This document shows positions 2,401 to 20,470 of a stretch of 64,000 bases of DNA, in pieces. Within the stretch, counting starts at the first letter, position 1. Each line of letters starts with the position of its first letter. The notes beneath the pieces are model-generated. The model was not told the DNA's origin and searched no databases. It saw nothing but the letters and a program-made list of their open reading frames with translations. A program made the translations under genes and the position numbers. Where the stretch lies: positions 1,240,001 through 1,304,000 of the forward strand of contig NW_024881519.1 of assembly GCF_019059575.1 (NCBI RefSeq). Direction: 5' to 3'. This DNA comes from Amphibalanus amphitrite. Lineage: Eukaryota > Arthropoda > Thecostraca > Balanomorpha > Balanidae.

Positions 2401-2544
2401 GTATCCCTAGCTTTATTTTTTTATATATCTTGCAGCTTGTCACTACTGTAACAGACCAATTCGCATATTGGAGGCAAATATTTTTTATTCGGTTGGCCCA
2501 TATTACGTTGGGTTTTGCCCAATACAACCTCTTAACCCTCGCCC

Positions 2545-3215
2545 TGGCAGTTGAATAAATATCCGGAGGCTGGGTCACCCTGTCTAATTCCTCTTTCCAT
2601 GCGGATTTTTGCGCCGAGGCATCCGTCCAAGAGAATGCGTGAAAAATTATTTGAATTAAGGTACAATATTCTGGTCATGTGTAAGCAACATGGCCCAAAG
2701 TTGTAACATTTGAGGGCGTTCTCTAAAAATTCCCATGATACCGTATCAAAAGCAGCTTCGAAATCCACCGCCATTATAATCCCGGTCGAAGATGTGTTCC
2801 TTACATGTTCTATCACATCATATGTAAGTCGACTATTTTCTCCGATAAATCTTCCTGGGATGTATGCAGTTTGTGTAGGAGAAATTAGATCGTCCATGAC
2901 CATTTTTAATCTGTTAGCAATTGCTGATGATACTATTTTAAAATCGACATTGAGCAACGATATCGGCCTCCATCCCTTCAACAAATCCCTAGGCTTACCC
3001 TGCTTTGGGATTAGTGTGACGATACTCCCACGGTGAGACATTAATGTTGTGCCATTTTGAAGTCCTTCGTTGACTGCGCGAAATAAAAAGGCACCCACTA
3101 CATCCCAGAACTGTCTAAAGAAGCTAGAGGTAAACCCGTTTGATCCAGGGGACCTGCCCTTTTTCATGCTAAGTAAAGGTGAGTGAAGTTCTTGAATTGA
3201 TAAGGGCTTATCCAA
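2545..3215 (-). pseudogene. LINE ORF2 reverse transcriptase, fingers/palm part
   Basis: This is a non-LTR reverse transcriptase that would copy LINE RNA at a nicked target. Motifs in order are KGRSPGSNGFTSSFF, SIVTLIPKQGKPRDLLKGWRP followed by ISLLNVDFKI, ANRLK, QTAYIPGRFIGENSRLTYDVI, AVDFEAAFDTVSWEFL (first catalytic Asp) and MERGIRQGDPASGYLFN. They match the L1/Tx1 clade. Homology stops right after GYLFN, so the YADD catalytic box is absent. At the break lies TTAACCCTCGCCCTGG (about 2,533-2,548), which looks like one end of the TTAA family found elsewhere here. A transposon-associated deletion is therefore possible. Confidence 0.85.
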
Positions 3216-3919
3216 AACATTCCTTTGCCGATCAGATAGTTTTTTTTTGTAATACTGTTCAAAAGATACTCCCTTGGGTCTGATATATCAACATTTTTTA
3301 TATAAATATTTTGATTGTAAATTATCTGAAAAATGTTGCATTATTTCTTCCTTGTTTGTTATTAACCGATCTTGATATTTTAAACAGTGTATAGAATTTC
3401 GCTCAGCGTTTCGTTTTTCAAGTGACAAAAAAATATTTTGAGCACTGCTCTCCTTCTTCGTACCAGTTAACTCTCGATCTTGTTATTAACCCTTGAATTA
3501 TTGGTTTTCTGAATTCCTCTAATTGTCGATGAGCGTCTTCTAGACGTTCTAAGTCCTCCTCTCTTTTCCTGTTATTGAATACAGCATTAAGTTTGTTTAC
3601 ATATTTCCGCTACTATCCTGCTCTCATCCTCTCTTCTCTGTCTTGCTTTGCATTTAGAAAAACGAACTGTCTCTCCTCGTATCATCATTAGAAGGGTTTC
3701 GTAAAATAAACTATTGCTGATTGTTAGTTGTACCAAGTCGTAATTTTTGGGATCTGACATGAATTCTTTGGTATATAATGGTGTTGCATATTGCTGGACA
3801 ACGTTTCTTATTATTCTCCTGACAAGTTCGTTGTAATCTTTATCTTCAAGAAGCGAGTCGTTGAACTTCCAGAGCCCTGGCCCTCTTTTCTTTTGTGGTT
3901 CCACTATATTTAAAGACAC
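3216..3919 (-). pseudogene. LINE ORF2 linker between endonuclease and RT
   Basis: The longest open piece (3,587-3,919) carries KKRGPGLWKFNDSLLEDKDY, the signature that follows the endonuclease in L1/Tx1 ORF2. After it come a charged stretch and stops. The next 370 bp to the RT are broken by frameshifts. It lies in the expected order and strand between the endonuclease and RT fragments. Confidence 0.75.
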
Positions 3920-5509: not shown

Positions 5510-6208
5510 TTTTCAAAATGTAACTTAGATTTACGGGGAGGCGAGGGCGTGTCCGTGAACTGGAAGGGATGAAAGGACGACGGAAGGTGAGTGGATGCAG
5601 CAAGACGGATGCCCGCAGCCGGCAGGGGCACCGGCTGGCCGCACCAGCGGGCAGCCCAGGCCGCCAGAGGAGGCACACGCCGACAGGACGTCACCGCCCT
5701 CCCCACCGAACCAGGAACCGCCGACCACGACTCCAGGCCCGCCGGCCCGCCGCCGGCACGCCGCCGCCACAGCACGCCGCGCCGCCACAACCACCACCGC
5801 AGCAGGTCAGACGTCGAGAGGCGACCCGCGAAAGAACACACACCCGTCTGCGGGAGATCGAACACAAGCAAACACCACAACACGCAACACAAACTGACAA
5901 CGTTTAATGGTAACTGGTCTCCAAACAACTCGCAACTCGTCAAAACAGGTATCAACAATCCGCAACGGAGAGCACGAACCATCCCATAACAAAAATACAC
6001 GTACCGAGTACGAGACAATGGACAGCTCGATAACCGTTGCACGAGGGCACACCTCTCCAGACACACACTGCTATACCTATAACTATCAAAACAGAAAGGG
6101 AGAATAGCAATCTCGTTCTCGTCCCAGCCAGTGCGATGGCTCTTACACTAGAAATAATCCCTTATGTCCCTGTAGCGATCGCGACCAGTAACCCCACCCG
6201 CACCACCG
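5510..6208 (-). other. GC-rich spacer between LINE ORF1 tail and ORF2
   Basis: Very GC-rich at 5,530-5,830, so several frames stay open without protein-like content. Downstream of the insertion at 6,209, the minus-strand ORF1 tail frame resumes for about 20 codons and ends in RDIRDYF and a stop near 6,149. The last five bases (CACCG, 6,204-6,208) are the left copy of the TSD of the inserted element. Confidence 0.5.
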
Positions 6209-6247
6209 CACAGTGTGGCCAAACACCAGTTTAGCGCGAATTAAATC
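6209..6247 (+). repeat. RSS-like left end of element 6,209-10,282
   Basis: Heptamer CACAGTG, 23-bp spacer and nonamer-like AATTAAATC, reading inward. It is preceded by the TSD CACCG. Confidence 0.85.
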
Positions 6248-6296
6248 CCAGCGCTGCTCGGATCCATTGAAAATTGTTCCCTGGTTTCAAAATTGA

Positions 6297-8103
6297 CTCG
6301 CATGTGTGCGGCGTTTGCCAGCTTCTAATGTGTAGGGGGGGGGGTCGGTTGGACCCCCCCTTGCCGTTTGGCCCCTGATCGAGCTAGAGCTTCGCGGAAA
6401 AAACGAGCGTGTTGCCCGTGACGAGAGGAAGCCGATGATGCCCAATTTTAAGGTCCTAGGTCATTGGTTGACCTTCCAGGTCAGGTCAATGACCCAAAGT
6501 CGGGAAAATCGGGACCTATTAGAAAGTCGTAAAGTGTGGCTGCTAAGGGGTTTTTCGGGGTGCTGATCACGAATATCGTGTTAGTTTTGATCACAGATGA
6601 TGTCTTTAACCCTAGAACGCCTGGGGGGGGGGGGGTTGTATCAACCCCCCCCCCCCGAGGTTTTTCTTAGCTACACGCCGAACCGTTTCAGATAGCCTGC
6701 TCAAATTTTCAGTACCCTTTGGGGCATCCTTTGCGCAACTTTTGGTAATTTTTTTTTTGTCAAGGTCATGTCAGGTCACGGAGTTATGACGTCATAAAGG
6801 GAACAACCTCCGGCCAGATTTACGCTAAATTGGAGATTGCTTCACATTGGTATAAATGCCGACTGACCTGACGCACTGATGGATTGTTTTATAGAATCAC
6901 AACTGGCTGATTTGACATTGGCACAATGTCCGTTGACATTTTGAAGGTCACTAAAGGTCAAGGTAAGGTCATTGACCTCGGTTGACCTGTAATGACTTCT
7001 TGCACTTGTATGCCATTTCGGGGTATTTTGATGCCCTGAATTCGAATTTGCTATCCATTTCAGGCATCGTCGGTTGTTTCTTGTAGTTCATTTTGGGTCA
7101 GGGTCAGGTCAGTGACGTCACACGCCTGACGTGACCCAATGGACAAATGACCTTGCAGACTTCCGATGCTCCCAACGCATCATTTTTAAAGTTATGACAT
7201 CGAAATACACACCAAACGATAGAGAATTGATCAAGGATCACGTTAGTGAAGGTTTCAAGTCGATATCTCTTACCGTTTTGCCGCAATCGGCGCGGAAAGC
7301 TGAAAAAGTTAGATTTTTCCGAAAATTTGACCTTTGACCGGTCATAAGTAGGTCAAATGTTGACCTAGGACCAAAAAATATACCACCAATCGCGAGATCT
7401 CGTTGAGAGCAATCCGTTGGTTTTTTCCGCTAAGCTCTACGACCTTCCGTTTCGAAACGCCAGGGGGGGGGTCGTAACAACCCCCCCCTCCCCTGGTCGT
7501 TCGTGTTATGAGAAATGGCCTGGTCGTGCGAGGGTTAAGCATTTAGACCAGGTTGGGTCAGGTCAGGTCAGGTCAACCAGTAGGCGTCGTGACGTGTCAA
7601 CCGCCTCTGACAGCTTCGTAACATGTTACGAAGGCACCAAAACTGCTTCGTAAATGTTCAAATGGTTGCTAAATTCGAATTCAGCTCCAAAAACTAGCCT
7701 AGAAACATGTAAAACTCGAAAAAGTGAACCGAGGTCACCCGAGGTCACCAAAGGTCAATGACCTGACCTGACCTTCAGGTGACCTTGACACCCACCCTAA
7801 TGCATGGGAGTAACATCAAATCACATGTTTGAACGTTTGAAACCACGAAAAGCTTGCAAACGCGCGGCTAATGCGTGCCGACATACGCGGAATCGCGATT
7901 CCGGCCAAACATGGTCTCGGAAAAGAGGTCACAGGTCAAAGGTCATTTGGGTGAGGGTCATGAAATTTTCAGGGTCGGTGTAAAATTGATCAATGCGAGG
8001 GTACTGAAAGTTTCGTCACGGTCGGCCGCTTTTTACGCGAGTTATTCGCGAAAAACCATGGGGGGGGGGGTCCATCCGACCCCCCCCCCTACACATGCGA
8101 GGG
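6297..8103. mobile_element. TTAA-family element with CTCGCATGTGT ends, carrying a nested element
   Basis: The right end reads CACATGCGAGGG then TTAA (8,104-8,107). The left end is the decayed mirror, TTGACTCGCATGTGT (from 6,293). Subterminal hairpins are GGGGGGTCGGTTGGACCCCC (left) and G-run...TCCATCCGA...C-run (right). The interior holds GGTCAGGTCA arrays. Related copies are at 43,090-44,937 (twice, inverted), 55,354-57,026 and 57,985-58,633. Non-coding. Confidence 0.72.
6610..7534. mobile_element. Nested TTAA-flanked element, 925 bp
   Basis: TTAA is at 6,606-6,609 and 7,535-7,538. The left end is CCCTAGAACGCCTGGGG, with a subterminal hairpin G-run TTGTATCAA C-run. The right has a hairpin G-run TCGTAACAA C-run and ends TCGTGCGAGGG. 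The host repeat without this insertion is seen at about 44,985-45,010 and, inverted, at about 58,325-58,350. Non-coding. Confidence 0.8.
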
Positions 8104-8222
8104 TTAAACCTATGTGAGACCTTTTCCGATGCATTATAAATGCTTGCAGACATATAATGGCATAGTTCCGCCTCTAAAAGTAAGGAGAACTAGCTTACGA
8201 CGGGTGATGTGCTTACCAGGCC

Positions 8223-8480
8223 AGGGCTGTGAAGTCGATGGAGTTACTCCGACTCCGACTACGGCTTTCAAAGGTCAATTTCAACTCTGACTCCGGGCAT
8301 AACTGTCGACTTATACGATCGACTCGGACTCTGACTCCGCAGCCATGGCAAGTCCACGCAGTCGATGGATTTTCGGTGACTCAGACTACGAGTCTTGGTC
8401 CGGATTCCAAAATCGATTCCGATTCCGACTCTGACTGCAGGGTCAGAACTGTTGACTCCGAACGACTCCGACTCTGATTA
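8223..8480. repeat. ACTCCG-rich degenerate hexamer block, possible hAT end
   Basis: Words ACTCCG/GACTCC recur about every 6-12 bp. The left border CAGGGCTGTGAAGTCG resembles hAT termini that carry GACTCCG arrays, and ACTCCGCAGCCATG near 8,335-8,348 could be the matching end. No convincing 8-bp duplication was found. Confidence 0.4.
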
Positions 8481-8777
8481 CGAAATCCTGGAATTTAACC
8501 GCAAATAAGAGGCATAAAATTGTGGGTCCCAGCAATGATGGGCATGCTAGGAAGAGGAATCGTTTACGAAATTCCCATCATTTCTCTGGTAAATTCTTAT
8601 GATTGTCCTAAGTTTGCTTGAAAAAACATCAACATCTAATTATGTTTCTGTGTGAATGTTCCTGGTGAAGCACATGAATCGGTAGATGGTTGCTGAAATA
8701 CACGCACCGATAGGACTGAACCTCAGCAATGGGAGTAAAAACAAAGACTTACACCATAAGCACCTTCATGTCATTAA

Positions 8778-9391
8778 CCCTCGCACGTATTGGTGTTTTG
8801 CTAGCCGCGAACGTAGGTCGGGTCAGGTCAGGTCAGGCCAACAAGTCCTGCCGGGTATTCATAATTAATCGGTGTCAACCGCCAGTGACAGCTTCGTTGC
8901 ATGTTACGAAGGCACCAAAACTTATTCCTAAATGTTCAAATGGTTACTAAATTCGAAATCAGCTCCAAAAACTAGCCTGGGAGCATGTAAAACTAAAAAA
9001 GGTGAACCGAGGTCATCAAAGGTCATTAAATTCACCTGACCTTCAAGTGATCTTGACACCGACCATAATGCATGGGACCAACATCATAATATCACATGTT
9101 TAGACGCTTGAAACCACGAAAAGACTGCAAACGCGCGGCTAATGCAAGCAAACATACGCCCAATCGCGCTTCCGGCCAAACATGGTCTCGAGAAATAGGT
9201 CACAGGTCAAAGGTCATTGGGGTCAGGGTCGTGAAATTTAAAGAGTAGGTAGGTGTAAATTGATAAACTCGAGGGTATTGAAAGTTTCGTCGCGATCGGC
9301 CGCTTTTACATGAGCTTTTTACATGAGCTTTATGCGGAAAACCGAGAGGGGTCCTTTCGACCCCCACCCTCACCCCCTATATGGGCGAGGT
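8778..9391. mobile_element. TTAA-flanked element, about 614 bp
   Basis: TTAA is at 8,774-8,777 followed by CCCTCGCACGTATTGGTG. The right end ATGGGCGAGG is followed by TTTAAA (TTAA at 9,392-9,395). The interior matches the right half of the 6,297-8,103 family: the tandem GGTCAGGTCAGGTCAGG near 8,820, the GTGACAGCTTCGT segment, and a decayed subterminal hairpin TCCTTTCGA between G and C runs. Confidence 0.65.
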
Positions 9392-9395
9392 TTAA

Positions 9396-10033
9396 AAAAT
9401 TGTCAAGATTTATTCATTAGCAACCGTATTCTGCAATATAACATGTCAGAAATGCAGCGGTTGAGCCATCCGCGTAGCGTTACGGAGCCGCCGCCGCGCC
9501 CACCCTGTAGCCAGACCTCCCCGGGCGGGCCAACCCGATACGTTCAAAGCTGAGCCAAAGGCCGGGGGGCAGGTTGGGGCAGGGTTTCTTGAATGGATCA
9601 TGTTCAGAAAAGTGTGGCAAATCTTCTCATGGTAGATTTGGCGTGGAGTTTTTTGGCCATTTTCTTATATCTCTACGTTTTTACGATAGACAGTGTTTTC
9701 AGGGGATGTTTGAAAAGGTCATTTTCAAATGAGCATAACTCATCGGTTAGTCCAAGGATACCTATAGAATTCGGGTATCCTATCAAATATAGGCTCAGTA
9801 GTCATATGCCACTCCAACTATTTCCGAACATTTCCGACAATTACGCCAAAATGTGTTGTAAACGTGACGCGGGTTTTCGACGAGTTCACCACAGCCGGGA
9901 CCGGCATTGCGTATGTCCACTTTAGCTAGCTTTTTGGACACCGAAAGGAAGACATTGAACCAAAGTATTGTGATATTGACACACTTTGGACAATTTACTA
10001 TCGACTGTTGAGTGGTAATGTGACGATTATTTC
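9396..10033. other. Interior of the Transib-like element, unassigned
   Basis: The longest frame is 110 codons at 9,593-9,925 and has no recognisable motif. This appears to be original interior sequence of the 6,209-10,282 element. Confidence 0.4.
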
Positions 10034-10193
10034 ATAAATATGCAAGATATTACAACAAAAATTACCCGACGTTTCGTTTATTATAACTTTTTCAAGGGTA
10101 ATGAAAAAGTTACCCTTTGAAAAAGTTACCCTTAAAAAAGTTATAATAAACGAAACGTCGGGTAATTTTTGTTGTAATATCTTGCATATTTAT
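10034..10193. repeat. Near-perfect 59-bp inverted repeat (hairpin)
   Basis: Arms at 10,034-10,092 and 10,135-10,193 are essentially exact reverse complements, with a 42-bp loop holding repeated AAAAGTTACCCTT words. It lies 50 bp inside the right end of the Transib-like element. The word TTTACTATCGACTG before it (about 9,996) recurs as ATTACTATCGACTG just after it, hinting at a small foldback insertion. Confidence 0.8.
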
Positions 10194-10243
10194 TACTATC
10201 GACTGATAGTTATAAAAAGTCAAAATTTCAAAAATCGTTTTTT

Positions 10244-10282
10244 GATTAAATTCGCGCTAATCTGGCGTTTGGCCACACTGTG
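10244..10282 (-). repeat. RSS-like right end of element 6,209-10,282
   Basis: Read inward on the minus strand: CACAGTG, 23 bp, AATTTAATC. It is followed outside by the TSD CACCG (10,283-10,287). Confidence 0.85.
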
Positions 10283-10287
10283 CACCG

Positions 10288-10908
10288 GTAGCGGACCCGA
10301 CGCACCCCGGCAGAGCAGCGCCCGTGCCAGTGGTGCGCCGCACCGACCGACCGCCCACCGCAGCCCCCGCACCCGACGCCGACCCGAGCACCCCGCCCGC
10401 AGCGCCATCCCCCACAGACAGCCGCTCAGTGCGCTTCGCAAGCTGCCCGCCAGATGACAGCACCCGACCCCGCTCACTCACCGGATCACCGCCCTCTGTC
10501 GCCACCGGCGCCGCCGCCGATACCGGTGAGGCGACCGCTGACGTCACCGTCACGTGCAGGTCGCCGCTCTCTCCCGTCCCACCGCCGGAGCCGGGGAGTC
10601 AATCGCTGACGTCATCATCAGAGGCGGCACCAGTCTCCCCGGGACTCCGGCAGATCAGGAGACTCATCGCGTCCCTCGCTGCCGGCGCCCACTCCAGACT
10701 CCACCCCGAGCGGCGGTGAGAGCTGAACCAGCTGAACTGGCGCCTCCAGAGCGCAATCCAGAAGCGACGACCCGCCCCGCCGCCCGCTGGAGGAAGCACC
10801 AACGGAGACGGGAGCCGTCGGGAGGCACCGAACCCCTCCCCGTGCCTCGGCGCAGAGGTTCCGGATCGGAACCGTGACGAGCGGGGCTGAGGACTCTCGC
10901 AGGGCTGC
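10288..10908 (-). pseudogene. LINE ORF1 C-terminal tail, frame-broken
   Basis: GC-rich DNA continuing ORF1. Minus-strand frames show Ser/Pro-rich stretches such as ETEMSSPARVLSPARHGSDP, but no single frame runs through. The part next to 10,288 stays open across the removed 6,209-10,282 insertion. I treat it as the decayed low-complexity tail of ORF1. Confidence 0.45.
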
Positions 10909-11793
10909 TCATCTCGGTCTCCAACACATCGCCCGAAGCAGATGTCGAGGGCAGCATCTCTCGCGCATGCTCTCGCTGCTCTCGCCTTGCCGCTGTGACC
11001 GGTTGCCTTGCCCTTCACCTTCCGGCAGCTGGGCGTGCCTCCGCGCGCGGCGGCCGGGCGCGCCAGCTCCGGCCAGCTGGCGCACCGCTTCTGGGTCGGC
11101 GATGCGGATCGGGGCCGAGTCACGTGACCGGCACACGAGAATATCACCGGACCGGGTGAACACAGAACAGATTAGCCCCTCTCTCTTCAGCTGTAGGAGA
11201 TCGGCGAAAATTGCCTGCCGACGAGGAGTCAGCGACTTGGCAATAAACAGTCCGGAGCCCCTCAGCTTCGACTTGGTCCTGAATAGAATGTCGCGGTCGG
11301 AGCCAGGTCCGGCTGAGGTGAACTCTATTAAGATCTTTCCGTTCTTCAACCGGATCATAGCCTTCACCTGTGAGCTATCCAAGGTGTGCTTCAGATGATG
11401 TTGCACCAGCGACCGGATCAGACTGGCGGCGTCCTCTCGGCGAGTCTGCGCCTGCAGCGTCGGCCCCGAGAAAACGAGACAGGTCAGTCGTTTCTGCTGC
11501 TGCTGCTGGTCCTCACCGAGCTCCAGCTGCTGGAGACGGTGCCTTAACTCCGCCGTCTCCTTCCGCAGCTGGATGATGTCCGTGTCCGCCGATCGCTGTC
11601 GCTCAGATACCGCGCTGAGTGAGTCCATGGCGAACGACAGGGACTCCTCCAGTGCAGCGAGTCGCCTGTCGTTTGAGTCCTTTATCTCCTTTACGCATTT
11701 CGCGTTCTCACTCACGATAAACTCCTTGAGTTCTGAGCACAAATCACGCTGTCCCTCCTGTGACGGGGAGCACACTTTCCGCTTCTTCGTCAT
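10909..11793 (-). CDS. LINE ORF1-like nucleic-acid-binding protein
   Basis: 294 codons from ATG. Residues 1-90 are charged with heptad-like leucines (ELKEFIVSENAKC, LAALEESLSFAMD, ETAELRHRLQQLELG), predicting a coiled coil for trimerisation. A glutamine run (QQQQQ) follows. Then comes a compact alpha/beta region: KRLTCLVFSGPTL, REDAASLIRSLVQHHL, KAMIRLKNGKILIEF, RDILFRTKSKLRGSGLFIAK and GDILVCRSRDSAPIRI. Coiled coil plus RNA-binding fold plus basic tail is the L1-type ORF1 plan: it coats LINE RNA. The last 50 residues turn arginine-rich and may be frameshifted. It lies upstream of ORF2 on the same strand. It may be an unrelated LINE's ORF1, but order and orientation favour one element. Confidence 0.72.
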   Translation of the reverse strand: MTKKRKVCSPSQEGQRDLCSELKEFIVSENAKCVKEIKDSNDRRLAALEESLSFAMDSLSAVSERQRSADTDIIQLRKETAELRHRLQQLELGEDQQQQQKRLTCLVFSGPTLQAQTRREDAASLIRSLVQHHLKHTLDSSQVKAMIRLKNGKILIEFTSAGPGSDRDILFRTKSKLRGSGLFIAKSLTPRRQAIFADLLQLKREGLICSVFTRSGDILVCRSRDSAPIRIADPEAVRQLAGAGAPGRRARRHAQLPEGEGQGNRSQRQGESSESMRERCCPRHLLRAMCWRPR

Positions 11794-11890
11794 AGCTCGG
11801 CTATACGCAGGCGCTCACTGTTACACTTAGCCAGCCAGGTACGCTCGCACCGACAGCCGCGCGCGCGGAGCGCCACCCCTCGCGCCCGAC

Positions 11891-13440
11891 CCGGCCAAGG
11901 TCAACCGGCCAATTGATTTTTTAAGTTGAAGTTAGCTTCTGAGGTAAGGCCACTTTCAGGTCAAAAAAGGTCAAATTTTTAAGCTAATATTTTTTAACAA
12001 AAAAGTGTCAATCGGATGCAATTCGAGATCAGGAACACGATAGTGCTATTTATATTGGTGTTCAATGTCAAATACGTACTGAAAAAATTATTTGAAATTT
12101 TATAATTGTGAACTTTTTGCTATAATGCGTATAGCTTGGCCATTTTTGAAGATATTTGGCTTAAACTTGCTAGAGTAGGTCATAAGCATGTGTTCTATCA
12201 CATATCTTCCGTTTTTTCGAAAAGTCAAAAAGTTTTTTTAATAAGTATAAAAATATAAATTTTGAATTTCATTATATACAATCATAGATAACAGTAGAAC
12301 TGGATTTGACAAGAGGGTCATTCCACGTCAAATCGATCACGAATGTACCCGACCCCCTTCGATTTGGATGAAATTTGGTAGGCTCTTAGCACCTGTGAAA
12401 ACAAATACATCCTACAAGTCTTAGACCTGGGTAACCTCTAGGGTCAAAGTTATAGGTCATCAAAGGTCAACGATTTTTGCCGACATTGCAGGTTTGAAAT
12501 GCCCATTGTTCTGTAATTAAGAGTGCGGAGAAGCTGTGATAAGCCCCATTAGAGAGGCAATTGATCCAGGTTTTATAAATAATTTTATATTTGTCGATGA
12601 CCTTTCAACGACCTTTGACCTGACTAGGTCAAACTGAGTATTTTTTAATTTGACCATGTTCTGTACCTCGGATGCTGACGAAAATTTAGCATAGGATGTA
12701 TCATAGTATCGACAATAGTTAAGTGGCGTAAATTTTTTTGGGGGGAAATTGTTATTTAAAAAGAAATAAATCCTTACATAAAGTCATGTGCCGTATACGT
12801 TGCCCTGAGGCTATTTGACGAATCGTGGCTAGTTTCGTGCTTCTTGTTAGCCCGATTGGGCTAAAACTTGGTATGCGGAATACCCTGTTGGTGTGCAGCA
12901 CATCAGTGTATTACAAAATGCTTGATTCATAGGTCAAAGGTCATCACCATCTAATACCATCTAAATACCATCTATACCATCTAAGACGTCATACCATCTA
13001 AATTTTCTGCATACGAGATTTATCCAGTGTTTATCGAAAGAAAATTCATCTGATGTTGTTAATCCATGAAACTGATTAAATACTACCAGCCGTCTACCGG
13101 GACTACTTGAATTTCATGTGAGGTCATTCTATATATTTTTTTTTAATTCTTAACCCTCCCCGGCCAAGGGGGGGGGGGGGCGGGTGCCGCCCCCGATAGG
13201 TTTTTCACGATAGCTCCGAACACGCCGGCGATAGAGCTGACACTTGGCATACCTGACCTTTGATTCAAGCCGGATCTTTTGAAACCAACCGCATTTTCGG
13301 GTCAGGTCAAGTCACTGACCTATGACGTCATAAGTGAACCTCTGCACGGTCTTCAGATGTCGCAACTTCGCAACGCCCTCACTGCCAGAGGAGCTTTCAC
13401 AGGGAACTGAAACTTGCAGGACTTAGTATCCATTATGAGT
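11891..13440. other. Unassigned AT-rich repeat sequence with AGGTCA words
   Basis: No gene. About 12,279-12,313 matches, inverted, 31,527-31,563. A TTAACCCTCCCCGGCC word at about 13,149, followed by a G-run/GGGTGCC/C-run hairpin, looks like the left end of another TTAA element whose right end is not seen. About 13,305-13,440 resembles 57,035-57,200. A TACCATCTA direct repeat occurs several times near 12,950-13,010. Confidence 0.5.
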
Positions 13441-14822: not shown

Positions 14823-17800
14823 CTACATCTTCGTGTAGGTGAGCCGATCAGGCTCGTTGCGGTTTCGCAGCGGGTAGCGGTTCAGCTGCGGCGGGGAGCA
14901 GGTCTCAGATTCAGCAGGCTCCTCGGTGGGCTCATCCTCAGCAGCCCTCGGTCCGTGAGAACCGTCCGGTACCGCGCCATGACGCAGGTCTTCCACGGCC
15001 AGGTCCACGAACGAGTCCAGGCGGGTCTCGTCAGCCCGACGTGCAGGCGCCGGCGCCGGCAGGACGGGGGCCGGAGTGCCGGCGTCCGAGCTGCAGTCCT
15101 CAGAGAGCAGTCGGTCAGGCCTCACTGGACAGGCACGCAGGCGGTCGTGGTGCACGATCATAGACCGCCTCCTGCCGTCTACTTCCCTCACTCGGTAGGT
15201 CACTTCGCTCTTCAACTGGAGAACCTCGAACGGTCCTATCCACTTGTTGGACAGCTTCGGACTGACGCCTACCTTCCTGTTCAGGTTTGACACCATGACG
15301 AGGTCCCCCGGAGCATGCTGACTGAACCTGACGGTCTGTTTCTGTCTATAGGCGCGCCTGCTGGACTCCACCCTCTCCTTCACCTCATGGCGCAGCTCGT
15401 CCAGTTCTTGGAGGCGTGATGCTATCTGGCTGTCATCTCGGGCGCGACCTGCCGCGAGATCTGTTGGAGTCGTGGCCTCATAGCCGAGCAGCAGCATATG
15501 TGGAGTCTGTCCCGTTGTTTCATGTACGCTTGTCCGGTAAGCCGCCATGACCTCCGGGAGCCGTGCATCCCAGTCAGCGTGATTTGTCGACACGTAGGAC
15601 CGGAGCATGTTGCCGAGTGTTCTCATGAACCGTTCCGCTTGCGGGTTTCCTTGTGGATGATGGGGAGTTGTCCGACTTTTCTGGATGCCGAACCTTGCAC
15701 ACAGCATGCGGAAGAGCTCAGACTCAAACTGCTTCCCTTGGTCTGAGTGGATCTGACGCATGGCGCCGAAGCGACAGATGATCTCATCCATGAGGACCTT
15801 GCACACGCTCTCGGCGTCCTGACGCTCCATCGGGAACGCTTCCGTCCACTTCGTTGCCTGATCTGTGACAATGAGTATGTACTTGTTACCCCTCCGACTG
15901 GGCGAGAATGGTCCGCAGATGTCAACTGACACGAAGTCCCACGGCCGCAGCGGAACAGGCAACGGCTGATGTGGGGCCTTGTCGCGCTGGTCTGGCTGCT
16001 TCACCTGGAGACACACCTGACAGGAACGGCACCAGTCGGAGACATCCACAGTCATCGTGACCCAGAAGAACCGGTCTCTTACCCTTTCCAGAGTGCGCCT
16101 CCCTCCTTGATGGCCAGACATGGGGTCGTCATGCGCCAGCCTCAGCACAGCCGGCACCAGGTGTGCCGGCACGACAACTTGCTCGCGCTCTCGGCCGCGG
16201 CACCTGTATCTGTTGATCAGTAGTCCGGCTTCGATCTTCAACGCGTCTCTTCTCCTCCAAAGCCGTCGTGCTCCTTCCGGAGCGGTCTGGGCGAGCCTGC
16301 CGATCGCGATGCCGTCCTTGACACAGCGCAGAGCCTCGTCCCGCTCCTGCTCCTCCGGTGTCACCAGAGCCGTGTCTGTCAGACGCACGGCGCTGACCGG
16401 CGCACGGGACAGCGCGTCGGCATGGGGAATGGACTTCCCGGCGACGTGTTGGATGTCGAGCTCGAACTCAGACAGCTTCAGAGCCCACCTGGCGAGACGT
16501 CCCTTCAGCTTGTTGGAGGTGGCGAGAGCCAGCAGTGGGTTGTGATCCGTTCTGAGCACGCAACGCCTCCCGTAGATGTAGACCCTGAAGTGTTCCACGG
16601 CCCAGACCAGTCCAAGACACTCCTTCTCCGTGGTCGAGTAGTTACGTTCGGCCTTTGCCAACACTCGGCTGGCAAACGCGACGGGCCGGCCATTCTGAGA
16701 CAGGATCGCGGAGATCCCAACATCGGAGGCATCAGTCGTCAGCTCGAAGTCGCTGTCCATCTTGGGATACGCCAGGACTGGCGCAGTCACCAGAACGCCT
16801 CTCAGTTGTTGGAACGCACTGTCACACTCTGTAGTCCATCTGAAGCCGTTCTTGAAAGTACGGTCTGCCTTCCTCTCCAACAGTCTCAGCAGCGGCTTGG
16901 CCATGTCGGCGTACTTGGGACAGAAGCGCCGATAGTAGGATGTCAGACCGATGAACCTCTGAAGCTCCTCGTGCGATGCTGGCGTCGGGTAGTCGCTTAC
17001 GGCCTTGAGCTTGTCTGGATCAGGGCGGATGCCGTCCTGGGTCACGAGGTACCCCAGGTAGCGTACCTCCTTCTTGGCGAAACTACACTTCCCCAGCTTC
17101 AAGAGCAGATTGGCGTCCGCGAATCTCCCCAGGATGTCGTCCAGTCGTTTCAGGTGCGTGTCGAAGTCCTTCGACCATAGGATGACATCGTCCACGTACG
17201 ACAGGGTGTATAGCCAGTTCGAGTCCGCCAGAAGCATCTGGAGCGCCATCTGCAGCGTTGCGCCTGAGTTCTTCTGCCCCATGGGCATCCTCAGCCACTC
17301 GTAATGGCCGCTGTGGGTCGAGAACGCTGTCTTCTCGATGTCACGCTCGTCCATCTTGAACTGCCAGTATCCGCTGGCCAGGTCCAGTGTGGTGAAGAAG
17401 CTGTTGTTCTGCAGACAGTCCAGGGCGTCGTCGATCCGGACCAGCGGGTGTGCGTCGAACTCGGTCACTTTGTTGAGGCCTCGGTAGTCGATGGTGAGCC
17501 GACTGCTACCGTCCTTCTTCTTGCACATGACGACGGGCGCGCTCCACGGGCTGTGGCTTCTGCGGATGAGTCCTTTCCGCATTAGGTCCTCACAGAACTC
17601 TTCGGTCTTCCGTCGGGTCTCCCAGTCGGTTCTGCGCGGGGGTATCCGGATGGGCAGCTGATGCTGGTCCTTCAGACGTATGCGGTGCTTCACAAGGTCG
17701 CACATACCGACCTCTCCCCGTACGGAGAACGCGCCGTTGCGTCGCAGCAGGACCGCCGCCAGGGCACGGCGCTGCTCGTCCGTCACATCCGACTCGGCGA

Positions 17801-18479
17801 CCTTGCTGTGGACCATGTCTTCCAGCTGTCGCTCTCTTGCCTCCCTTTCCTCCCGGCTGAGATCGCTCAGCGGCGAGGCACGCACTGTCGGCGGATCCGC
17901 GTAGCCGACACATCGGGCGACAGTGCACGACTTGTACAACTTCACTGCACTTCGACCCGGGTTACACAGCCGCAACTGAACAGCGCTGTCTGTCCTGATG
18001 ACGTCCACAGAGCTCGAGACGCAGAGGCTGTTCCCGTAGCGTCGTGTGAACTTGCTGTCCTCGACCAAGGTGATGTGCTGCCCGGGTGCACATGCAGTGT
18101 CGGCCCGCACTCTGCCCGCCAGCAGAACCTCAGACGCCGCGGGGATGGTGACGTCCGCGGTGAGCTCGACTGGGTGTCCGTCGATAGCCGGTGCACCGGC
18201 CGCGGCTGGGCCGCCAGCGTCACGGCTCTCCATAGCCGCAACTGCAGCTGGGCCGCCGGGTACCACCGCCCTCTCGCCGAGGCTGCGTCCGCCGGTCACA
18301 CGCCTGTCGGCCGTAGAGTTCTCCGTCAGTCGCATAGTCATGTGCACGAAGTCGAGCGCCACCTCGCCATACAGGGACAAGAAGTCATTGCCGAGGACGC
18401 ATTCGGTGTTCACACTGTCAACAATCAGTACCGTGTGACGCCGCGGCGGCAGGTGACCCACACTCGACGGTTGCATCAA
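14823..18479 (-). CDS. pol: Gypsy Pol: protease end, RT, RNase H, integrase
   Basis: 1,218 open codons; the first is TTG, so this frame is not an independent start. Residues 15-45 are the end of protease (TVLIVDSV...VLGNDFL). RT spans about 275-495: LTIDYRGLNK, TTLDLASGYWQF (catalytic D366), PMGQKNSGATLQ and YVDD at 429-431 region. RNase H: TTDAS, STTEKE and RTDHNPL near 581-650. Integrase: zinc-binding H783...H790...C817/C820/C823, then catalytic D853 (VDICGPF), D913 (HSDQGKQF) and E949 (PQGNPQAERF). A GPF-type module follows (KLSNKWIGPFEVLQL), then an acidic tail. All catalytic residues are present. It is expressed after gag by frameshifting. Confidence 0.96.
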   Translation of the reverse strand: MMQPSSVGHLPPRRHTVLIVDSVNTECVLGNDFLSLYGEVALDFVHMTMRLTENSTADRRVTGGRSLGERAVVPGGPAAVAAMESRDAGGPAAAGAPAIDGHPVELTADVTIPAASEVLLAGRVRADTACAPGQHITLVEDSKFTRRYGNSLCVSSSVDVIRTDSAVQLRLCNPGRSAVKLYKSCTVARCVGYADPPTVRASPLSDLSREEREARERQLEDMVHSKVAESDVTDEQRRALAAVLLRRNGAFSVRGEVGMCDLVKHRIRLKDQHQLPIRIPPRRTDWETRRKTEEFCEDLMRKGLIRRSHSPWSAPVVMCKKKDGSSRLTIDYRGLNKVTEFDAHPLVRIDDALDCLQNNSFFTTLDLASGYWQFKMDERDIEKTAFSTHSGHYEWLRMPMGQKNSGATLQMALQMLLADSNWLYTLSYVDDVILWSKDFDTHLKRLDDILGRFADANLLLKLGKCSFAKKEVRYLGYLVTQDGIRPDPDKLKAVSDYPTPASHEELQRFIGLTSYYRRFCPKYADMAKPLLRLLERKADRTFKNGFRWTTECDSAFQQLRGVLVTAPVLAYPKMDSDFELTTDASDVGISAILSQNGRPVAFASRVLAKAERNYSTTEKECLGLVWAVEHFRVYIYGRRCVLRTDHNPLLALATSNKLKGRLARWALKLSEFELDIQHVAGKSIPHADALSRAPVSAVRLTDTALVTPEEQERDEALRCVKDGIAIGRLAQTAPEGARRLWRRRDALKIEAGLLINRYRCRGREREQVVVPAHLVPAVLRLAHDDPMSGHQGGRRTLERVRDRFFWVTMTVDVSDWCRSCQVCLQVKQPDQRDKAPHQPLPVPLRPWDFVSVDICGPFSPSRRGNKYILIVTDQATKWTEAFPMERQDAESVCKVLMDEIICRFGAMRQIHSDQGKQFESELFRMLCARFGIQKSRTTPHHPQGNPQAERFMRTLGNMLRSYVSTNHADWDARLPEVMAAYRTSVHETTGQTPHMLLLGYEATTPTDLAAGRARDDSQIASRLQELDELRHEVKERVESSRRAYRQKQTVRFSQHAPGDLVMVSNLNRKVGVSPKLSNKWIGPFEVLQLKSEVTYRVREVDGRRRSMIVHHDRLRACPVRPDRLLSEDCSSDAGTPAPVLPAPAPARRADETRLDSFVDLAVEDLRHGAVPDGSHGPRAAEDEPTEEPAESETCSPPQLNRYPLRNRNEPDRLTYTKM

Positions 18480-18741
18480 CAGTCCCCCTCACCTTCAACG
18501 GCGTGCCATCAATAGTCACCGGTGCCGATGCAGGGTGCACGAGGGGTCGGAACGCTTTGCACCCTACCGCCGGGCAGCTGCTGGTGACGAACGTGACGTC
18601 ACTGCCAGTGTCAGCAAGCCACGTGACGCGGACGCCGTCGATGGCGCCCCGGATCAGCGGAGTCGTCCGAGCCACCCTAGAAGAGGCTACTACAGCGGGG
18701 ACCGAGGAGCGGCGGCTCACATCCTCCTCGGTCCGTTCCCG
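18445..18741 (-). CDS. Gypsy protease, N-terminal part, with +1 frame break
   Basis: A retropepsin with catalytic WLADTGSDVTF. It has no proper ATG and lies in the -1 frame relative to gag. It stays open from the slippery site at 18,741-18,747 through VRGTVDATVE. The second half of the fold (HTVLIVDSV...LGND) is in the pol frame, one base further on. One extra base therefore lies between about 18,445 and 18,480, inactivating this copy, or it is a sequencing/assembly error. The out-of-frame tail runs to a stop at 18,418. Confidence 0.85.
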
Positions 18742-19647: not shown

Positions 19648-19838
19648 TGTTGCGTTCACTCACCGAGCACTCGTCGATAACTGCCGCGTCCGTGCGGCGC
19701 TGGCCCGCGCGGAGCGGGACGGGGTCGTGACCTCCAGTGCCCCGGGGCAAGGTCAGCTGGCGGTCGGACGATCGTCCGGTCACGCGCAGGGGCGGTCGCG
19801 CGCGCACAGTGAGGGGAGGCCGAAGTGTGACCGCCACA
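19648..19838 (-). repeat. 5' LTR
   Basis: 191 bp, identical to the 3' LTR. The right flank is the TSD GTAC (19,839-19,842). Confidence 0.97.
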
Positions 19839-19842
19839 GTAC

Positions 19843-20470
19843 CACAGAGGGTCTTATGTTTGTCCTAATGGGCCCTCTGCTGGTCTTAGCGGGTCCTTTG
19901 TGTGCCTGGGAGGGCCCCCTGAGTACCTGAGAGGGCCCTCTGTGTGTTTGAGAGGGCCCTCTGTGTGCCTGAAAGGGCCCTCTGTTTGCCTGAGAGGGCC
20001 CTCTGTGTGCCTGAGACGGCCCTATGTGTGCCTGAGAGGGCCCTATGTGTGCCTGAGAGGGCCCTCTGTGCCTGAGAGGGCCTTCTGTGCGCCTGAGAGG
20101 GTCCTCTGTGTGTCTGAGAGGGCCCTCTGTGTACCTGAGAGGGCCCTATGTGTGTTTGAGAGGGCCCTCCGTGTGCCTGAGAGGGCCCTATGTGTGCCTG
20201 AGAGGGCCTTCTGTTTACCTGAGGGGGCCCTCCGTGTGCCTGAGAGGGCCCTTTGTGTGCCTGAGAGGGCCCTTCGTGAGCCTGAGAGGGCCCTCTGTAT
20301 GCCTGAGAGGGCCCTCTGTGTGCCAGAAAGGACCCTCTGTTTACTTCACAAGGTCCCTCATTGGCCTAAAGGTGTCCTCTAATAACGTTAGTCCTGAAGG
20401 GGTCCCTTAAAGAGTTCTACAATACTTTTTCTTTTTGCGAATAAATTGGAAAGTGGTCAAAAGGGCCCTT
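19843..20470. repeat. 21-bp minisatellite, unit GAGAGGGCCCTCTGTGTGCCT
   Basis: Roughly 20 units of mostly 21 bp from about 19,900 to 20,340, becoming degenerate at both edges. Because 21 is a multiple of 3 and the unit has no stop, long repetitive frames (ERALCVP-type, LRGPSVC-type) appear. They are by-products and not genes. Each unit holds the 12-bp palindrome AGAGGGCCCTCT. Confidence 0.93.

Follow-up and report, generated by a model that had tools for sequence, protein, structure and literature searches.

A 64,000-nucleotide window of the barnacle Amphibalanus amphitrite genome (contig NW_024881519.1; C22:1240001-1304000) was analysed against the whole assembly of 807.55 Mb in 2644 contigs. 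The window contains an insertion at 6209..10282, the subject of this report, which has inverted ends of 39 bp. The ends are identical at 36 of 39 positions, with mismatches at bases 17, 22 and 35, and the similarity drops past base 39. The same end pair appeared in an inverted-repeat scan as 40 nt with 93% complementarity; a first-pass annotation made from the sequence alone had given approximately 41 bp. Two other observations of that annotation, an exact CACAGTG heptamer at each end and an identical CACCG on both sides as the target site duplication (TSD), could both be confirmed (Table 1). When the flanks 6101-6208 and 10288-10400 were joined, they matched one other place only, C67:942697-942879, with 161 of 184 positions identical. 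This alignment revealed a single gap close to the end of the match and no gap at the junction. Because the joined flanks align to C67 without a junction gap, the insertion is real, and C67 holds a related empty site.

Table 1. Coordinates of the element, its ends and its nested inserts in the window (position 1 is the first nucleotide)
Feature	Position	Strand	Basis
Left TSD copy, CACCG	6204..6208		Sequence; empty site
Left inverted end, CACAGTG first, left type (...TTTAGCGCGAATTAAATC)	6209..6247	+	36/39 identical to right end
Family element, consensus bases 1-89	6209..6297	+	blastn to 2057-bp consensus, 97.8%
1806-bp insert after consensus base 89	6298..8103		Comparison with consensus, L009 and L010
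925-bp TTAA-flanked insert nested in the 1806-bp insert	6610..7534		TTAA at 6606-6609 and 7535-7538
Family element, consensus bases 92-1980	8104..10007	+	blastn, 97.0%
185-bp fold-back insert near consensus base 1980	10008..10192		68-nt arms 10034-10101 / 10126-10193
Family element, consensus bases 1968-2057	10193..10282	+	blastn, 96.7%
Right inverted end, CACAGTG first on the - strand, right type (...ATTAGCGCGAATTTAATC)	10244..10282	-	End comparison
Right TSD copy, CACCG	10283..10287		Sequence; empty site

The ends of the window element are commoner in the genome than chance would give. With up to one mismatch, the 16-mer CACAGTGTGGCCAAAC occurred 359 times in the whole genome (168 forward, 191 reverse) compared to 25 times (15 + 10) for the reversed pattern, and based on this difference the genome is estimated to hold approximately 170 elements of the family. 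The exact 17-mer ending in G, which represents the right type, occurred 99 times against 0 for its reversed control. A search with the left 126 bp as the query yielded 41 matches at 40 places (the window and L009-L047), the best 40 of 402 candidates scored, and the left type recurred in all 39 other loci examined. Full-length relatives, for which the first-pass annotation had proposed a genome search with the ends, were found in this way; both ends lay within the fetched stretch in 37 of the 40 copies, the exceptions being L019, L022 and L024. An exact 5-bp TSD could be observed in 36 of these 37. In L047 the duplication reads CCGGT/CGGTG with one side altered, a mismatch which the loss of one base would explain; apart from this copy, neither other borders nor another TSD length, which the annotation had named as contrary outcomes, were seen among the 37. 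Thirty copies measured 2031-2118 bp and were 97.5-99.1% identical to a 2057-bp consensus, while seven of the 37, including the window copy, hold additional sequence. Since the 40 copies were the best-scoring left ends of the 402 candidates, their low left-end divergence is partly a product of selection. No frame longer than 110 codons was found in the 2057-bp consensus. The family is young and non-coding.

The insertion sites were further compared for a target preference. Not all sites were independent. The pairs L018/L023 and L039/L044 each have the left and the right flank in common, and copies of a single repeat, oriented either way, house L017, L018/L023, L025 and L031. Where the 7-bp flanks were equal, the sites were therefore counted once, so that 33 of 36 remained. 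Among these 33 distinct sites, CRNYG was present at 29, CGNCG at 18 and CANTG at 1, and the extended form CCRNYGG was present at 23. In the window background, CRNYG starts at 1.7% of positions and CCRNYGG at 0.13%. The target of the family is a palindromic C-CRNYG-G, which resembles published Transib motifs. According to excerpts of the respective papers, Drosophila hopper and transib2 produce 5-bp TSDs at the motif CCANTGG (PMC3276498), and the target of a moth Transib is CGNCG (PMC4735498).

Transib transposases, which are related to the recombinase that rearranges vertebrate antibody genes, were found in the same genome. A search of the genome with the RAG1 profile PF12940 revealed 7 loci with E values from 0.006 to 1.3, none of them above the cut-off, and three frames out of these loci were taken further, namely P0001 (L049), P0002 (L053) and P0003 (L050). 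P0001 matched 6pqn ("Putative DNA-mediated transposase") with an E value of 1.2e-108 and RAG1 chains with 7.4e-07 at best; for P0002 the match to 6pqn had an E value of 5.2e-98, and P0003 could be aligned with both P0001 and P0002. We take 6pqn to be HzTransib, the Transib of Helicoverpa zea. Residues D299, D404 and E615 of P0001 align with stretches of RAG1 which presumably hold its catalytic residues, at the positions assumed here. The nearest named relatives of P0001 were the A. amphitrite proteins P0005-P0008 (73-97% identity). With P0002 as the query, at least 88 matches were obtained in the genome (best 85 of 160 candidates scored); at least 28 of the 88 had an open frame of at least 600 amino acids, stop-free within the match, some of them being near-duplicates. 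Transib transposases in this one genome are numerous and diverse. Two sets of elements could be delimited around such frames. Family B (L048 and L049) consisted of 2.89-kb elements with a Transib frame, ends CACRCTGGTCCAGATTCACG and TSDs GTCGG and CAGGG, while L051 and L052, at 1.88 kb each, held a broken fragment of a transposase between ends CACAGTGTTTTATCTCGGCC, with CACTG and GAGTG as TSDs. These families start with CACRCTG and CACAGTG, sharing the CAC start of the window ends.

Based on these comparisons, the window copy is in all likelihood a damaged member of a DNA transposon family which is young, non-autonomous and part of the Transib superfamily. The annotation had proposed a non-autonomous Transib-group element, and this proposal is well supported by the TSDs in 36 of 37 copies, the target motif, the CAC ends, the lack of coding capacity and the Transib-rich genome. 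On this account, an enzyme of the Transib type, encoded elsewhere in the genome, would bind the CACAGTG ends, excise the element and insert it at CRNYG targets; a stagger of 5 bp on joining would leave the 5-bp TSDs. We infer that a Transib enzyme very probably moves the family, and the choice among such enzymes is likewise a matter of inference.

Several results weigh against this assignment. The ends of both complete co-resident Transib families diverge from those of the window family past the first bases. No transposase was found between window-family ends when the 99 exact right ends were compared with the places of the P0002 matches. Translated comparison of the consensus and of ten longer copies with 94 proteins (P0001-P0094; best E 0.51) detected no transposase remnant. 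Next to the L050 and L053 transposases, the best family-like ends reached 14-18 of 39 positions, within the chance range of the window, although the heptamer CACAGTG is present at L053:255, L053:678 and L050:1287. The annotation had expected a RAG1-core or Transib transposase between such ends and named a transposase of another superfamily there as the contrary outcome; in these comparisons no transposase of any kind was seen there. A helper with diverged ends may exist.

Candidates for an autonomous partner were considered individually. Only 1 of the 99 exact right ends (C414) lay within 80 kb of a listed transposase place. It was rejected, as 84 bp past the transposase fragment a left end begins which has a CGGCG flank of its own; the same left end lies 2091 bp from the right end and, from its left flank, was read as a separate copy. 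Among the CACAGTGTGGCCAAAC matches listed up to C392, three end pairs were 2.8-3.1 kb apart. The longest of them, C38, was also rejected, because the 701 bp read match consensus bases 884-1579 at 95.6%. The other two of these three were C21 and C287, and pairs 6-19 kb apart were seen in C159, C88 and C108.

The first-pass annotation had also described the ends as a heptamer, a 23-bp spacer and an AT-rich nonamer, as in the recombination signal sequence (RSS) of V(D)J recombination. On such an account, which is compatible with a Transib assignment, the enzyme would read the heptamer and a nonamer-like block across a free 23-bp spacer. The RSS consensus consists of the heptamer CACAGTG, which is exact at both window ends, and the nonamer ACAAAAACC. 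An AT-rich block lies at bases 31-38 of the window ends, and AT-rich blocks occur near there in two other families. However, the two ends are identical at 21 of 23 spacer positions compared to 8 of 9 nonamer positions, and the supposed nonamer fits ACAAAAACC at only 5 and 4 of 9 positions, values which 14% and 32% of the 9-mers in the window with 8 A/T also attain. In the left end, the stretch from base 11 fits the same consensus better, with 7 of 9. The spacing is 23 at both ends and thus lacks the 12/23 asymmetry. In family B (L048/L049), five of seven bases differ at 21-27, and otherwise only bases 4 and 42 within the first 46. Across the 37 copies, changes within the first 39 bases of the right end fell at base 13 (4 copies), 16 (3), 21 (1) and 39 (5), while the left end had none, partly by selection of left ends. 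The higher conservation of positions 31-39 over the spacer, which the annotation had suggested looking for by alignment, was not seen. With a spacer no less conserved than the other positions, equal spacings and a nonamer match close to chance, the layout of heptamer, 23-bp spacer and nonamer is not supported, and only the heptamer is RSS-like. Reading across a free spacer is accordingly judged improbable, and it is just as doubtful that a RAG-related enzyme reads both the heptamer and the AT-rich block near base 35 in these protostome ends. If it did, the heptamer-spacer-AT layout of the 23-RSS would already be used by a Transib lineage in a crustacean. A review (PMC8355894) describes Transib spacers as symmetric, at 20-22 bp, and some members as having the 12/23 asymmetry.

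A derivation from a RAG-like (RAG1L-RAG2L) transposon, moved by a RAG1L-RAG2L pair, is very unlikely. Such transposons, ProtoRAG among them, have the CAC ends and 5-bp TSDs of the window family (excerpts of PMC7204232 and PMC9435367), protostomes included (PMC7204232). However, the protostome RAG-like end consensus in the same excerpt, CACTWMCAAACKTYKBB (PMC7204232), fits the window ends only at the first three bases and an inner AAAC. RAG1L was not found by the PF12940 profile, with 0 of 7 candidates above the cut-off and the three checked frames being Transib (6pqn at 1e-98 to 1e-108 for two of them); no RAG2L search was made. The least probable account, by a small step, is an element of another cut-and-paste superfamily with 5-bp TSDs and a convergent likeness to Transib: some hAT groups are said to leave 5-bp TSDs and a transposase between window-family ends was not found, but the window family combines CAC ends with strict 5-bp duplications and a C-CRNYG-G palindrome as its target, as Transib elements do.

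The window copy measures 4074 bp, and its excess over the consensus consists of nested inserts. A native size of 4 kb could therefore be ruled out. The outer parts and the left junction of the 1806-bp insert are common to the window copy, L009 and L010, which sit at other sites with other TSDs (CAGCG and GGGTG). The presence of one insert junction at three different sites fits mobilisation in trans, and it is most simply explained by continued movement of a copy bearing the non-coding insert, giving a subline at three sites. The nested TTAA-flanked insert was absent in L009 and L010; its ends, CCCTAGAA / CCCTCGCA, are presumably piggyBac-like. The arms of the fold-back insert are 99% complementary, and a repeat of approximately 10 bp flanks the insert.

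Further observations were made on these inserts and on other copies. The 925-bp insert carries long G-run/C-run hairpins, and repeats related to it occur at 8776-9393 of the window and flank L017, L018, L023, L025 and L031. L023 has a repeat of the element's first 188 bp ahead of a second copy which begins at consensus base 8. L022 is interrupted at element nt 1403 (+) by sequence with a 550-codon frame resembling, by eye, a Penelope-type reverse transcriptase, and L043 at element nt 749 (+) by sequence with an 851-codon frame resembling, by eye, a reverse transcriptase of the long interspersed nuclear element (LINE) type.

The flanks of the insertion were also examined, as the annotation had placed it inside a LINE. 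The right flank 10288-11900 is collinear with C67 at 85% (query 5-1613). Its far part is a dispersed repeat carrying a frame similar to ORF1 (first open reading frame), with at least 44 matches (best 40 of 48 candidates scored), and 37 of the 44 begin at query base 742 or beyond (window 11029 or beyond). A reverse transcriptase frame occurs on the same strand at 2532-3287. A LINE at the insertion site is likely, and the repeat and the reverse transcriptase frame are candidate pieces of it. The placement could be upheld only in part; a Pfam search of the ORF1-like frame gave nothing convincing. Elsewhere in the window, a 1221-codon open frame at 14823-18488 (-) resembles by eye a Gypsy-type retroelement polyprotein, and tandem peptide-like repeats (RGPSVCL, PERALCV) occur at 19831-20382, where both strands have open frames. 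Scanning the 64-kb window with Rfam and for tRNA genes gave 0 hits.

Compared with known systems, the window family shares its CAC ends and 5-bp TSDs with the Transib superfamily (Drosophila hopper and transib2, Helicoverpa zea Transib), and like the fly elements it has a palindromic target that reaches one base past the TSD, CCRNYGG against CCANTGG. It differs from them in being non-coding, in that a transposase between its own ends was not found, and in that most targets are edged CG instead of CA. With the V(D)J RSS it has the heptamer in common, but its spacer is conserved, its nonamer match is weak and its spacing is equal at both ends. Moth Transib miniature inverted-repeat transposable elements (MITEs), as described in an excerpt of PMC9033116, are likewise non-coding with 5-bp TSDs and inverted ends (13-57 bp, compared to 39 bp here), but measure 75-564 bp and are listed there with 5 and 16 sequences, whereas the window family has a 2057-bp consensus and an estimated 170 or so elements. 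In the literature search, as far as the retrieved text goes, Transib and barnacle co-occurred only in a dog whelk genome paper, once each, and a query on non-autonomous Transib elements surfaced only mosquito small RNA work. Judged against this literature, without Repbase, the window family is filed as a new family, non-coding Transib elements with 5-bp TSDs being already known. It adds a young, high-copy Transib-type parasite to a genome rich in Transib transposase frames. The occurrence of several CAC-end families in one host would allow a direct comparison of Transib end recognition, the root of RAG cleavage.

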